A stretch of DNA of 64,000 bases from Candidatus Saccharimonadota bacterium (GTDB taxonomy: Bacteria > Patescibacteriota > Saccharimonadia > Saccharimonadales > UBA4665), in assembly GCA_028289125.1 (NCBI GenBank), contig JAQGGZ010000005.1:62001-126000 (forward strand). The letters are read 5' to 3'. The notes under the pieces were generated by a model, which saw nothing but the letters and a program-made list of their open reading frames with translations, did no database searches and had not been told where the DNA came from. Below, piece after piece: positions 1,156-53,204 of the stretch; positions within the stretch are counted from its first letter, which is position 1; the number at the start of each line of letters is the position of its first letter. The translations under genes were made by a program, and so were the position numbers.

Positions 1156-2535
1156 ATGAATAGGAACATCAAACAGTTCGGAGCGTTCGCAACGACGTCT
1201 TTGAGCGTGCTGTCGTTCATGTTTGCTGGATCGGCATTGGCAGAATCGAGCACGGGTGTAACCGGTAACGGTTCAACAAACCAGAACGTCAGTCAGGTAG
1301 TCTCTGACTATATGAATAGAAACAATAACGATGTCGGTGCCCGGAATGACAACTCACAGGGTTCATACAGTGGGTCGTCATCTTCGAACGGCAATACGAT
1401 TGCCGGCGGGCACGGCAATAGCCTAGCAAGTTACTTCGGAGGCGGCCAGTCAGGCGACTGGAACAACCAGAACAACAACCGGAACAATAACAACTACGAC
1501 AACCAGAACTACGACAACAGCAACTACGACAACAACCGGAACAACCAGAAGAACAACTACAGCAATAGCAACCAGAACTACGACAACAACTACGATAAGT
1601 ATGGGAAAAATAGCGGCCATGGTGGCAACACCGGCACCGCTTACAACAGCAACACCACTGATACTAACGTCAGGGTGAATAACAAAGACGGTAAGGGTGG
1701 TAACTGTAGCAGCTCATACGGCGGCGGATCCGGAACGATCGGTATCACCGGCCCCTACTCTATCAATGTCATCCGCAACTTCATGAGTAACTCGTCTAGC
1801 AACGTGAACCGTAACAATCTGTTCTTGCTGAATGCGAGCAACCAAGGTGCTCGTAGCGGCGACACGTCTAACAGCGGCAACACCATCGGTGGTGGTGGCG
1901 GTTCGACTGGGAATGCGTTCAATAGGAACAACACTAACACCAACGTCAATATCACGAACAATGGTGGCGGCGGCTGTGCATACTCGAGCGGTACGGTCAG
2001 ATCTGGCAGTATCTGGGTCAGTGGACCGAACTCCACCAACCTGATCGTCAACTACTCCTCGAATAGCCATGTCAGCAGCAACACGAACAACGTCGTTACG
2101 TCTAACCGCAACTCACAAGGTGCCCGTAGCGGCGACACCAGTAGTAACTCCAACACAATCGCTGGTGGTCGCGGCGGTTCGACTGGGAATGCGGCCAACA
2201 CAGCTTCGGCCGACACCAACGTCAATATCTCCAACAACTCTTCATCCAACTCAGCTTGGAACGAACAGAAGAGAGGCAATGACGGTGGTTATGGCGGAGG
2301 AAGCACGATTGGTATCACCGGCCCTGGATCGCACAATGAGATAGTCAGCTACGTCTCGAACAGTCACGAGAGTACCAATGATAACCAGGTACTCGTCGAT
2401 AACTCCAACGACCAGGCTGCATTTAGCGGCGACAGCTCCAACGATGGCAACACCATCGGTGGCGGCGGCGGTTCGACCGGTAACGCTCGCAACGCAGCAA
2501 TGGCAAACACTGATGTCTCACTAAAAAACAACTAA
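1156..2535 (+). CDS. Secreted Asn/Gly/Ser-rich repeat protein
   Basis: 459 aa. Residues 1-29 form a signal peptide ending in SALA before ESST. The mature part contains four ~75-90 residue units, each with (I/V)(T/S)GP.S.N.I...S.S, then N.QGA.SGDTS, then (G/A)GGGGSTGNA, then a T.TNV.I.NN end. The first unit is degenerate and interrupted by a ~55-residue Asn/Tyr/Gln tract (about residues 100-155). There are only two Cys. No catalytic motif is seen. Low complexity, repeats and export suggest a surface fibre, adhesin or matrix protein; curlin-like assembly is possible but no curli partner genes are near. The start is set by AAAGGGGGG five bases upstream of the ATG. A strong terminator follows, so it is monocistronic. 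Confidence 0.85.
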   Translation: MNRNIKQFGAFATTSLSVLSFMFAGSALAESSTGVTGNGSTNQNVSQVVSDYMNRNNNDVGARNDNSQGSYSGSSSSNGNTIAGGHGNSLASYFGGGQSGDWNNQNNNRNNNNYDNQNYDNSNYDNNRNNQKNNYSNSNQNYDNNYDKYGKNSGHGGNTGTAYNSNTTDTNVRVNNKDGKGGNCSSSYGGGSGTIGITGPYSINVIRNFMSNSSSNVNRNNLFLLNASNQGARSGDTSNSGNTIGGGGGSTGNAFNRNNTNTNVNITNNGGGGCAYSSGTVRSGSIWVSGPNSTNLIVNYSSNSHVSSNTNNVVTSNRNSQGARSGDTSSNSNTIAGGRGGSTGNAANTASADTNVNISNNSSSNSAWNEQKRGNDGGYGGGSTIGITGPGSHNEIVSYVSNSHESTNDNQVLVDNSNDQAAFSGDSSNDGNTIGGGGGSTGNARNAAMANTDVSLKNN

Positions 2536-2552
2536 GCCCCCGCGGGCATGAT

Positions 2553-2581
2553 AAAAGAGAGGCGAGAGGGGCCTCTCTTTT
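2553..2581 (+). terminator. Rho-independent terminator
   Basis: Perfect 11-bp stem AAAAGAGAGGC / GCCTCTCTTTT with a 7-nt loop, 17 bp after the stop of the secreted repeat protein. Confidence 0.85.
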
Positions 2582-2624
2582 GCATGATATGTGACAATTT
2601 TCATAGGATTACGTACCTTAGGCG

Positions 2625-2996
2625 ATGTATGGTCGGGCTATGCGAACACGTCGTAACGTTCCGTTAGTAATTGGTGTATCAACCGTCATGGTGGTATTCG
2701 GAGTACATCAGCTGGTACGTCCTAAGGACTGGACGGATTACGTCCCTGACCAGCTAGACGAGGCGCTGCCACTGGAAACTGAAACCAAGATGCGTCTGCA
2801 TGGTGCCGGTAACGTATCGCTCGGGTTACTGTTCTTGCTGTTTTATAAGAAACCGGTGGTGACTTGGATGACGGCCGGTTGGTGGGGTTTTGTCACGCCC
2901 GTCTGTTGGTGGCATGGCTGGAAGGAAGGCCTCCGTGACCTTCCAATACTGTTTGCCATAGTGCAGCTCGCCACGACTCCTGACAGCAAGAATTAA
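2625..2996 (+). CDS. Small membrane protein, function unknown
   Basis: 123 aa with about four hydrophobic segments (VPLVIGVSTVMVVFGVH; NVSLGLLFLLFY; VVTWMTAGWWGFVTPVCWW; LPILFAIVQLA). The spacing resembles DoxX-like small membrane proteins but no signature is decisive. Two in-frame ATGs (2625 and 2640) are possible. Neither has a good ribosome site. A TAGGAT -10-like box lies about 17 bases upstream. The 3' end overlaps the convergent HAD gene by 4 bp. Confidence 0.6.
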   Translation: MYGRAMRTRRNVPLVIGVSTVMVVFGVHQLVRPKDWTDYVPDQLDEALPLETETKMRLHGAGNVSLGLLFLLFYKKPVVTWMTAGWWGFVTPVCWWHGWKEGLRDLPILFAIVQLATTPDSKN

Positions 2997-3661
2997 AAGG
3001 GTTTTACGTCCGTCTCGATCAGTTGCAACAGCACATTTTCCATGGCGGCGATGCTGCTGACGATATAATCCGCGCCGGCTTCTTCCAGATCGGCCAATAG
3101 CCCGAAGCCATGCGTGACAGCAATCGTGGTAAAAGCCCCGGCATTCTTGCCGGTTTCAACGTCAATCGTCGTGTCCCCTGCCATCGCGGCGTCGTGTGGT
3201 GACACGCCGCATTCTTTGGCGGCTAATAAGAAGCCTTCGGCGTTTGGTTTAGGATTCGTCAGTCGTTCGTTATGGACGATACTGCTAAAAAAGGTGTCAA
3301 AACCGTGGTGGCGCAGGATATCGTTAACTCTCGGGCCGCCACTTGTCAGGATGCCAAGCTTCAATCCGCTGTCATGTAGTTTTTGCAGCAATGATTCTAC
3401 ACCTTCGAACGCAGCTGAAGCCATCAGGTTGGCAGCGATGAAACTGCTGTTCGTGTGCAGGAGCTGCCGGATGTCCTCATTGGGATACAGCTTCTTAAAA
3501 ATCTCAGGTAATGGTTGCCCCATTTGGCTACGGATTTCATCCGCGCCCGGTGCGCGCAAGCCGTGTGTTTCAGCTACGTGACGGTAGGCCGATAATATAA
3601 GCTCGAAACTATCGAGTAGGGTTCCGTCGGCATCGAAGATGACTGCTTTGAGCTGGGACAT
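2993..3661 (-). CDS. HAD-superfamily hydrolase (phosphoglycolate phosphatase-like)
   Basis: About 222 aa. HAD motifs in order: I, FDADGTLLDS with both catalytic Asp; II, LTSGG; III, the Lys in NPKPNAEG; IV, GDTTIDVETGKNAG. An alpha-helical cap (residues ~15-85) marks subfamily IA, as in Gph, PpaX or beta-phosphoglucomutase. The substrate cannot be assigned. The open frame extends to a TTG at 3679, but ATG 3661 gives the normal family start (MSQLKAVIF). It follows the alcohol dehydrogenase by 21 bp and is probably co-transcribed with it. Confidence 0.85.
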   Translation of the reverse strand: MSQLKAVIFDADGTLLDSFELILSAYRHVAETHGLRAPGADEIRSQMGQPLPEIFKKLYPNEDIRQLLHTNSSFIAANLMASAAFEGVESLLQKLHDSGLKLGILTSGGPRVNDILRHHGFDTFFSSIVHNERLTNPKPNAEGFLLAAKECGVSPHDAAMAGDTTIDVETGKNAGAFTTIAVTHGFGLLADLEEAGADYIVSSIAAMENVLLQLIETDVKPF

Positions 3662-15741: not shown

Positions 15742-16042
15742 TAAATTTCCAGGGCGTCGTACACTGTCAAATAATGTGTGATGACTATACGTATCGAGCG
15801 CATGTCGTACGTGAATCTATGCGACTTGACCCATGCGGATAGCTGGTGAGTTATTGACCCCCACCTTCTCTTCTGCTTTTGCATTCTCTCTACTTGGTAC
15901 GCGCGCAAAATTTATTTCGTACTATAGAATTCATCCTGTGCGTTCTTAAAATGCTCGGCACTTTCATTGAGCAAAAACGGTTACTCATCAATATTGTACT
16001 TTCGAACTTACGGCTAGACGGTGAATTACTTCGGTACGAAAT
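15742..16042. other. Intergenic stretch without a supported gene
   Basis: Low-GC DNA between the nucleotide cassette and the tRNA-Asn unit. Both strands hold only short open frames without ribosome sites or recognisable motifs. It may be degraded mobile-element DNA given the tRNA-end repeat beside it, but nothing in the sequence proves that. Confidence 0.5.
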
Positions 16043-16088
16043 AGATAAGCTTTTCGATACAATCATAGATTGCACGAAAAGCTTATCT
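16043..16088 (-). terminator. Long hairpin ending the tRNA-Asn unit
   Basis: Perfect 14-bp stem AGATAAGCTTTTCG (16043-16056) / CGAAAAGCTTATCT (16075-16088). The 18-nt loop contains a further CAATC-ATA-GATTG helix. It directly follows the second copy of the tRNA-Asn 3' end, where a displaced original terminator would be expected. Confidence 0.6.
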
Positions 16089-16259
16089 TGGCTCGGGCGA
16101 CCGGATTATAGCTTCACGCCGGATACCTTTTAAATTTTTACGGATTAGCGATTCGGGCTTGGCATAGGTTTTGGTTAATCACCAAAACATCGAACGTTCG
16201 GTATAATCCGTTCACTCGAGCCAAACAAAAACACCTTCGGCGAGGAAGGTGTTTTTGTT
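16089..16259 (-). repeat. 171-bp structured tRNA-tail unit, copy A (tRNA-Asn)
   Basis: Read on the minus strand after the tRNA: a 15-bp/8-nt-loop hairpin, an inverted copy of the tRNA 3' end (19 of 22 positions pair with the final copy, plus one wobble), a conserved middle with TTCGATGTTTTG...CAAAACCTATGCC, a conserved 20-mer CCGGCGTGAAGCTATAATCC (16122-16103), and a direct copy of the tRNA-Asn 3' end including CCA (16107-16089, 18 of 19 bases identical to 16278-16260). The spacing between the two tRNA ends is 171 bp. The same unit follows tRNA-Gln at 53035-53204. No open frame is present. It is either a tiny mobile element using tRNA 3' ends or a structured RNA; see findings. Confidence 0.75.
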
Positions 16260-16260
16260 T
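16223..16260 (-). terminator. Terminator of tRNA-Asn (inside the repeat unit)
   Basis: 15-bp stem AAACAAAAACACCTT / AAGGTGTTTTTGTTT with an 8-nt loop, starting at the tRNA CCA end. The pairing continues into the tRNA end itself because the inverted copy CGAGCC lies on the far side. Confidence 0.8.
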
Positions 16261-16334
16261 GGCTCGGGCGACTGGATTCGAACCAGTGACATTTCGGTTA
16301 ACAGCCGAACGCTCTACCGCTGAGCTACGCCCGA
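16260..16334 (-). tRNA. tRNA-Asn (anticodon GTT)
   Basis: 75 nt with encoded CCA. Acceptor stem TCGGGCG/CGCCCGA, D-arm GCTCAGCGGTAGAGC, anticodon arm TTCGGCTGTTAACCGAA with GTT in the loop, T-arm CTGGTTCGAATCCAG, discriminator G. All stems pair fully, so it should be functional. Confidence 0.95.
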
Positions 16335-52962: not shown

Positions 52963-53037
52963 TAGGGCGTCGCCAAGTGGTAAGGCATCAGTTTTTGGTA
53001 CTGACATTCGGGGGTTCGAATCCCTCCGCCCTAGCCA
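52963..53037 (+). tRNA. tRNA-Gln (anticodon TTG)
   Basis: 75 nt with CCA. Acceptor stem TAGGGCG/CGCCCTA, D-arm with AAGTGGTAAGGC, anticodon arm TCAGT-TTTTGGT-ACTGA (TTG), T-arm GGGGGTTCGAATCCCTC (closing pair imperfect), discriminator G. A TATACT box at 52945-52950 serves as -10. Confidence 0.93.
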
Positions 53038-53204
53038 AATTAAAAAGACCTGCTTCAGTAGGTCTTTTTAATTTGCTTGAACGGGATTACTAGAACGGGT
53101 TCGATGTTTTGCCGTCGTGGCAAAACCTATGCCGAACCCGATTCCGCCTACCTGTTCGAATAATATGGCGGAACCGGCGTGAAGCTATAATCCCTCCGCC
53201 CTAG
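53035..53204 (+). repeat. 170-bp structured tRNA-tail unit, copy B (tRNA-Gln)
   Basis: Same order as copy A: 15-bp hairpin with an 8-nt loop, a degenerate inverted tRNA end (GGGATTA at 53083-53089), TTCGATGTTTTG (53100-53111), CAAAACCTATGCC (53121-53133), the identical 20-mer CCGGCGTGAAGCTATAATCC (53174-53193) and a copy of the tRNA-Gln 3' end AATCCCTCCGCCCTAG (53189-53204, identical to 53019-53034). Copy-to-copy distance is 170 bp. A terminator follows at once. No coding frame. Confidence 0.78.
53037..53074 (+). terminator. Terminator of tRNA-Gln (inside the repeat unit)
   Basis: 15-bp stem AAATTAAAAAGACCT / AGGTCTTTTTAATTT, 8-nt loop: same geometry as the tRNA-Asn terminator but with different sequence. 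Confidence 0.88.

Follow-up and report, generated by a model that had tools for sequence, protein, structure and literature searches.

We analyzed a 64,000-nt stretch of a Candidatus Saccharimonadota genome (hereafter, the window) and consider, with a probability of roughly 60%, that its tRNA-Asn locus holds a small non-coding insertion unit of ~171 bp in the 3′ part of the gene. The unit would comprise a replacement tRNA 3′ end (positions 59–76), a terminator, an inverted arm, a T-arm remnant, and a structured core of ~83 nt. It would have interrupted the tRNA at the T-loop and then made the gene whole again by supplying a 3′ end and terminator of its own, leaving the original 3′ end and the native flank behind as the distal copy. 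Related units sit at many other tRNAs, each carrying the end of its host tRNA, and may be mobilized in trans by a further enzyme or spread by uptake and recombination of tRNA loci.

Three copies of the tRNA-Asn 3′ end

The window locus is one case of a recurring order: a tRNA, a terminator hairpin, an inverted copy of the tRNA 3′ end (A′), a structured insert, and a second copy of the tRNA 3′ end (Table 1). The tRNA-Gln unit at 52963 has the same parts. A preliminary description had reported three copies of the tRNA-Asn 3′ end at this locus, one of them inverted, and the sequence and ARAGORN confirm all three. Its interpretation held only in part: it had overlooked the T-arm remnant, the 83-nt element, and the native flank past the distal copy, and it recognized neither that the unit had been inserted nor that the original end had been displaced to become the distal copy. 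The A at 16107 is common to the core end and the distal copy. Both window copies of the tRNA-Asn end share CGCCCGAGCC, where the tRNA-Asn of relatives differs; more than one order of events at the acceptor stem would fit this, which counts against the insertion-unit reading, as does the inverted arm, for which a simple insertion does not account.

Table 1. Features of the two units in the window; positions are counted from its first letter.
Feature	Position	Strand	Remarks and basis
tRNA-Asn(GTT)	16260–16334	−	CCA encoded; positions 59–76 are the proximal copy (ARAGORN); plus-strand 16260–16278 reads tggctcgggcgactggatt, the complement of the 3′ end including CCA (direct reading)
Terminator-like hairpin 1	16223–16259	−	Directly after CCA; sequence and fold
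Inverted copy (A′) of the tRNA 3′ end	16202–16222	−	Reads GGCTCGAGTGAACGGATTATA; after the terminator, complementary to the tRNA end and the distal copy; sequence, duplex energies
T-arm remnant GTTCGA	16190–16195	−	Left side of the split T-loop; sequence
Structured core, 83 nt	16107–16189	−	Helices P2 and P3, 3′ end GAAGCTATA; interrupts the second copy at its T-loop
Distal copy of the tRNA 3′ end (positions 58–76)	16089–16107	−	Displaced original end; plus strand reads tggctcgggcgaccggatt, 18 of 19 identical to 16260–16278 (direct reading); sequence, filled/empty comparison
Hairpin 2	16041–16087	−	Directly after the distal copy; sequence, fold
Large serine recombinase remnant	15879–16130	+	C-terminus runs into the distal copy (SWLGRPD); alignment to intact relatives
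tRNA-Gln(TTG), second unit	52963–53037	+	Sequence
Core of the tRNA-Gln unit, 85 nt	53105–53189	+	Sequence
Distal copy of the tRNA-Gln 3′ end	53190–53204	+	15 nt plus the A at 53189; sequence

We exchanged linkers and tRNA ends among 38 units, which were chosen by an exact distal match of at least 10 nt, with three own-genome tRNAs that have a downstream tRNA left out. For the Asn linker, the strongest partner was its own tRNA end (−23.4 kcal/mol), which none of the 37 other ends surpassed, and the inverted-copy score over all 38 units exceeded 20,000 of 20,000 permutations, indicating that the three copies are not a product of chance. The distal-copy statistic of the same permutation is partly due to selection, since an exact distal match was the entry criterion. 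The linker ranked its own tRNA end first or second in 24 of the 38 units; inverted and distal copies thus recur in other units, contrary to the refuting outcome named in the preliminary description, an inverted copy conserved in no other unit. Decay of the inverted copy in the tRNA-Gln unit, which it had also described, was borne out, with 20 of 37 foreign tRNA ends binding the Gln linker better than its own end. We did not retain the suggestion that the Asn copy, with its better-kept inverted copy, is the younger, as decay varies widely among units.

A count by one rule in five genomes was free of exact-match selection. It covered tRNAs with at least 240 nt of downstream DNA and, in the four genomes other than that of the window, part of the tRNAs (34, 38, 39, and 45 matches in G035, G393, G030, and G424, respectively). 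Distal copies followed 9 of 41 tRNAs in the window genome (inverted copies: 7), 6 of 18 in G035 from another family (inverted: 5), and 5 of 28 in G393 from the same class outside the order (inverted: 2). By the same rule, neither distal nor inverted copies were found at the 25 tRNAs of G030 (same family) or the 21 of G424 (same phylum, outside the class).

Filled and empty tRNA-Asn sites

The search with the window locus yielded 30 loci, 29 of them from relatives (L257–L285); ARAGORN found tRNA-Asn in 26, and 24 had downstream DNA. A unit was present at 4 of these 24 evaluable loci and absent from 20. Past the window distal copy, the flank resembled that after tRNA-Asn in L261 (score 57; best of 200 shuffles, 25). 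The comparison was likewise clear with L263, marginal with L260 (1 of 200 shuffles reached the score), and gave no match with L270 and L282, both of which have other flanks. The distal flank of L273 matched L270 (score 86; shuffle maximum, 27), and those of L275 (54 vs. 28) and G107 (67 vs. 30) also matched a unit-free tRNA-Asn flank; the flanks beside the tRNA in L273, L275, and G107, the three tested against L270, scored 14–17, below the shuffle maxima. The sequence immediately after tRNA-Asn in unit-free G151 recurs past the distal copies of G003, G272, and G107, and that after tRNA-Asn in G129 recurs past the window distal copy.

A second line of evidence comes from a recombinase gene. An open frame runs antisense into tRNA-Asn in 6 of 11 loci tried (L259, L260, L261, L263, L264, and L282), and the two of these six frames that were scanned are large serine recombinases, the zinc ribbon of one being below the cut-off. 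The alignment of the window remnant with the intact L261 protein (E = 5e-13) extends through the distal copy, although a Pfam scan of the remnant alone gave no match. The remnant enters the distal copy exactly as the intact genes enter tRNA-Asn in relatives. The native flank past the distal copy and the recombinase running into it mark this copy as the old end of the tRNA, which now bears a different one. An insertion of ~171 bp supplied a new tRNA end and terminator and displaced the old 3′ end.

The intact recombinase genes lie at 1555–3081 (minus strand) in L260 and 1580–3067 (minus strand) in L261; their 3′ ends overlap tRNA-Asn antisense, ending WLRGLDSNQRPSG. Serine recombinases share the tRNA-Asn site, and nothing links them to the other unit-bearing tRNAs.

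The structured core and its placements

A third case of the core was found at tRNA-Ser with a 19-base pattern, and a two-hairpin structure was derived from twenty core copies. Acidobacterial and viral matches to the pattern (L004 and L005) were judged to be chance, as they have no tRNA and nothing core-like beyond the pattern. Among 87 aligned copies, in an alignment that was fitted to the core model and leans towards the structure, 89.4% of pairs were standard, and covariation was 0.650 compared with 0.193 in shuffles (0 of 500 as high), falling to 0.06–0.12 when one strand was slid. A plain MAFFT alignment gave the same covariation picture, but the structure had been chosen on that alignment. 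G-U cells (45) outnumbered A-C cells (12), the cells not being independent, which points to the tRNA-sense strand as the folding strand. The core is thus constrained to fold on the sense strand and most likely acts as RNA. An early pairing, GGGUUCG with CGAACCCG, was replaced by P3, which covaries. A short peptide in the core (ATG after AAGGAG in some copies) was dropped, as its frame is not conserved while P3 covaries.

Core copies are 60–95 nt long. Homology between copies of different genomes stops abruptly at the same two borders, in unrelated contexts, and empty sites agree at base precision: alignments run continuously across the junction for c76 against L098 (72/79) and for c18 against L061 of the same genome (123/147). 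The borders were picked by a rule that favors A before and T after, which biases the count of 85 of 89 copies after an A; homology breaks and empty sites are their independent support. The core itself appears to be a mobile module with sharp ends.

With E values up to 0.01 accepted, the core model had matches in 42 of the 392 genomes from the order (29 of 316 when counting near-complete genomes only), 14 of 244 genomes drawn from the class, and 2 of 239 drawn from the phylum, all from this order; the genomes drawn for the three samples overlap. Genome G153 alone had 14 matches. We left out the two weakest matches (G034 and G372) and assigned the placement of the remaining 89 copies by scripted rules. 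A tRNA precedes and a copy of at least 9 nt of that tRNA’s 3′ end follows the core in 27 of the 89, covering 12 tRNA kinds, and in 18 of the 27 the tRNA-end copy begins within 2 nt of the core end. Where a tRNA is in reach, the match mostly starts 46–125 nt after it, tandem or nested cases excepted. Four of the 89 copies interrupt a tRNA-Met copy at its anticodon loop, an intact tRNA-Met following downstream, 10 lie inside another repeated structured motif, and 14 split a hexamer within one mismatch of TATAAT (–10 box-like). The remaining 34 match no placement rule, several being T-loop-like without a tRNA in reach. Copies c58 and c68 lie antisense downstream of a tRNA, which counts against the insertion-unit reading. 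Units are tRNA-specific yet not bound to one tRNA, and each carries the end of its own tRNA.

These placements bear on two further explanations. One is a protein-less mobile RNA, which we regard as conceivable but distinctly unlikely. Its ~85-nt sense-strand core would enter exposed single-stranded loops immediately behind an A (T-loops of tRNAs, the anticodon loop of tRNA-Met, promoter –10 boxes, and another structured RNA). Copies in tRNA genes would be fixed only if the interrupted end is copied along, which would let the core settle in any tRNA and leave specificity unchanged. The precision of insertion in T-loops, anticodon loops, and another structured RNA would also suit a small self-splicing intron in RNA loops, but the promoter concerned would not transcribe the fourteen copies that interrupt a –10 box-like hexamer, the split tRNA has an intact one beside it, and no Rfam group I intron was found in the five and six unit loci scanned, whereas the same library finds four elsewhere. 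We consider such an intron very improbable.

In the window genome, 43 tRNA genes were found and 42 distinct ones were read. Several of these tRNAs, Gln-CTG, Val-TAC, Met, and Phe among them, have inverted and distal copies with an insert other than the core, and at Pro-TGG and Glu-CTC the distal copy is accompanied by a weak inverted one. A second insert type, GCGCAG-hairpin-CGAGCA inside a variable stem, occupies the same T-loop position (own tRNA loci L178, L184, L204, and L207; also L247–L249, L273, and L275), and several G153 units have the core nested within this second insert. A third type, with TGCAAGG, was seen at the T-loop position in L235, L237, and L240 (G035). A repeated motif, AAGAGCAGCCC-hairpin-GGCGCGATGAGAAACC..GGTGTCTCAT, lies upstream of genes or tRNA-Asn (L098, L105, L123, L124, L126, and others); it is split by the core at two neighboring points and had no Rfam match in the loci scanned. 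Another conserved stretch, TTTTGAGAGGA..CATAG..CAAAACGAG..CTGACGAGG, lies directly upstream of tRNA genes in L061, L086, L091, and L150.

Spread, folding, and relation to known systems

In one pair of genomes (G001 and G107), a unit common to families f2 and f6 was 95% identical over 291 nt, while their tRNA-Asn genes were 82% identical, as expected for horizontal transfer. Units have accreted in tandem at the tRNA-Asn of G001. Unrelated core contexts, patchy presence, tandem accretion, and interfamily identity all speak for transfer. The same two genomes show the clearest order, in which the stretch from the variable loop to CCA is followed by a terminator, the inverted copy, a small hairpin, and the stretch again with the core in its T-loop. 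This A-hairpin-inverted A-hairpin-A order would fit two template switches, that is, fold-back replication at the terminator hairpin that made all the copies, with unrelated sequences entering the second copy later and no element involved. However, terminator 1 differs from the native flank, the second copy is repeatedly split at the T-loop with the tRNA-end copy so close to the core end, and the unit is common to two families at high identity; we therefore hold fold-back replication to be improbable.

The preliminary description had proposed a switch, and its claim that the two pairings of the inverted copy are mutually exclusive agrees with the fold predictions (duplex energies of −24.2 kcal/mol with the tRNA end vs. 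−27.2 kcal/mol with the distal copy); these predictions apply to a putative read-through transcript. The stem of hairpin 1 can be extended into the tRNA end in the predicted fold (CGAGCC...GGCTCG). When the first six pairs were forced, a 290-nt transcript with the inverted copy on the tRNA end folded at −122.2 kcal/mol and lost the cloverleaf, and that with the inverted copy on the distal copy folded at −114.8 kcal/mol and kept it. Pairing with the distal copy would be expected upon read-through, because the tRNA folds first and terminator 1 lies between. In such an RNA, the displaced distal copy is predicted to hold the inverted arm, leaving the cloverleaf intact.

A resident regulatory RNA would read these folds otherwise: the tRNA 3′ trailer would be a switch whose inverted copy invades the tRNA end unless it is kept in place by the distal copy, thereby tuning maturation. 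The two exclusive folds are similar in energy, the core folds on the sense strand, and most units have kept an exact or almost exact distal copy while their inverted copy drifts. Position 63, the one informative site, shows the inverted copy agreeing with the distal copy and not with the tRNA. Against this, the arrangement is patchy (4 of 24 tRNA-Asn loci and 0 of 25 tRNAs in a same-family member), the insert differs between units, the core is also found outside tRNA contexts, and filled and empty sites show insertion. We rate a resident switch as unlikely and prefer the insertion unit.

We searched for an enzyme that could move the unit. No integrase gene was found inside the element, which has no room for one between the tRNA and the core. 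Among 15 genomes, some with units and some lacking them, 13 had exactly one tyrosine recombinase and two had none. TnpB was found in 0 of 70 genomes. Y1 transposases occurred in 14 of 35 genomes with the core and 12 of 35 without it, and reverse transcriptases in 4 of 35 and 5 of 35, respectively; neither was found in the window genome (G000) or the core-rich G153. No element-specific enzyme thus emerged from these four families, to which the genome-wide counts extended. A partner gene was not found beside the 89 core copies, whose recurrent neighbors are ordinary genes, which we take from their sequences to be FtsB-like, SmpB, and others. The enzyme counts also bear on a guide RNA, in which the core would be the scaffold, the 18 nt of the distal copy would direct an RNA-guided nuclease or transposase, and the T-loop TTCGA would be the recognition motif. 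Many units do have an exact 18–19-nt copy directly 3′ of the conserved scaffold end, and the T-loop motif is common to most tRNAs, but no TnpB/Cas12f-type protein was found in the 70 genomes, and an intact self-target adjoins; a guide function is highly doubtful.

Integration at tRNA ends is a classic gene-transfer route. To our knowledge, known integrations of this kind bring an integrase with them and are for the most part confined to a single tRNA. As in tRNA-integrating islands and IMEs, a direct repeat of the tRNA 3′ end lies at both borders of the unit, with the old end distal. The units resemble tRNA 3′-end genomic islands, tycheposons, and prophages in the intact tRNA with a supplied end, the displaced far-border copy, and tandem accretion, but differ in being ~170 bp, gene-free, without an integrase found, spread over many tRNAs, and equipped with an inverted arm and a structured core. 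Like MITE/REPIN mini-transposons, they are short, non-coding, and multi-copy, with hairpins near their ends; unlike these, the core has no visible terminal inverted repeats or target duplication of its own, the unit arms are copied from the local tRNA, and a matching transposase was not found. They share with group I introns in tRNA genes, which are present in the tRNA-Asn of four relatives, a structured RNA at a tRNA loop, but the core is 60–95 nt, has no Rfam match, and the tRNA is restored by a second copy.

Over the units, Rfam gave only tRNA above the gathering threshold (window; five unit loci at E up to 5 and six at E up to 1), and a search of unit and motif loci for known RNA families gave only tRNA, tmRNA, and chance matches. 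The group I intron model RF00028 matched neither the window at the gathering threshold nor the scanned unit loci at these E limits. In the portions consulted, the literature on mobile RNA, Patescibacteria repeats, tRNA integration, mini-elements, serine recombinases, and group I introns did not describe the units; the family thus appears undescribed in Rfam and in that literature. The bacterial genomes concerned are among the smallest, in which little non-coding ballast is found, and a gene-free family using many tRNAs there would point either to a mobilizing enzyme beyond those known or to RNA-level insertion. Filled and empty sites, a conserved core, and many independent targets make it a testable system. 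The tRNA 3′ flanks of Saccharibacteria hold undescribed structured RNAs, which is a warning.

The tRNA-Asn genes of L286–L289 (G253, G225, G203, and G186) are split by a group I intron of ~230–245 nt (Rfam, 84–99 bits). In L084 (G009:C8), the core follows an intact smpB-like gene and precedes a partial, diverged copy of that gene’s 3′ end, which is the displaced-end pattern at a protein gene.
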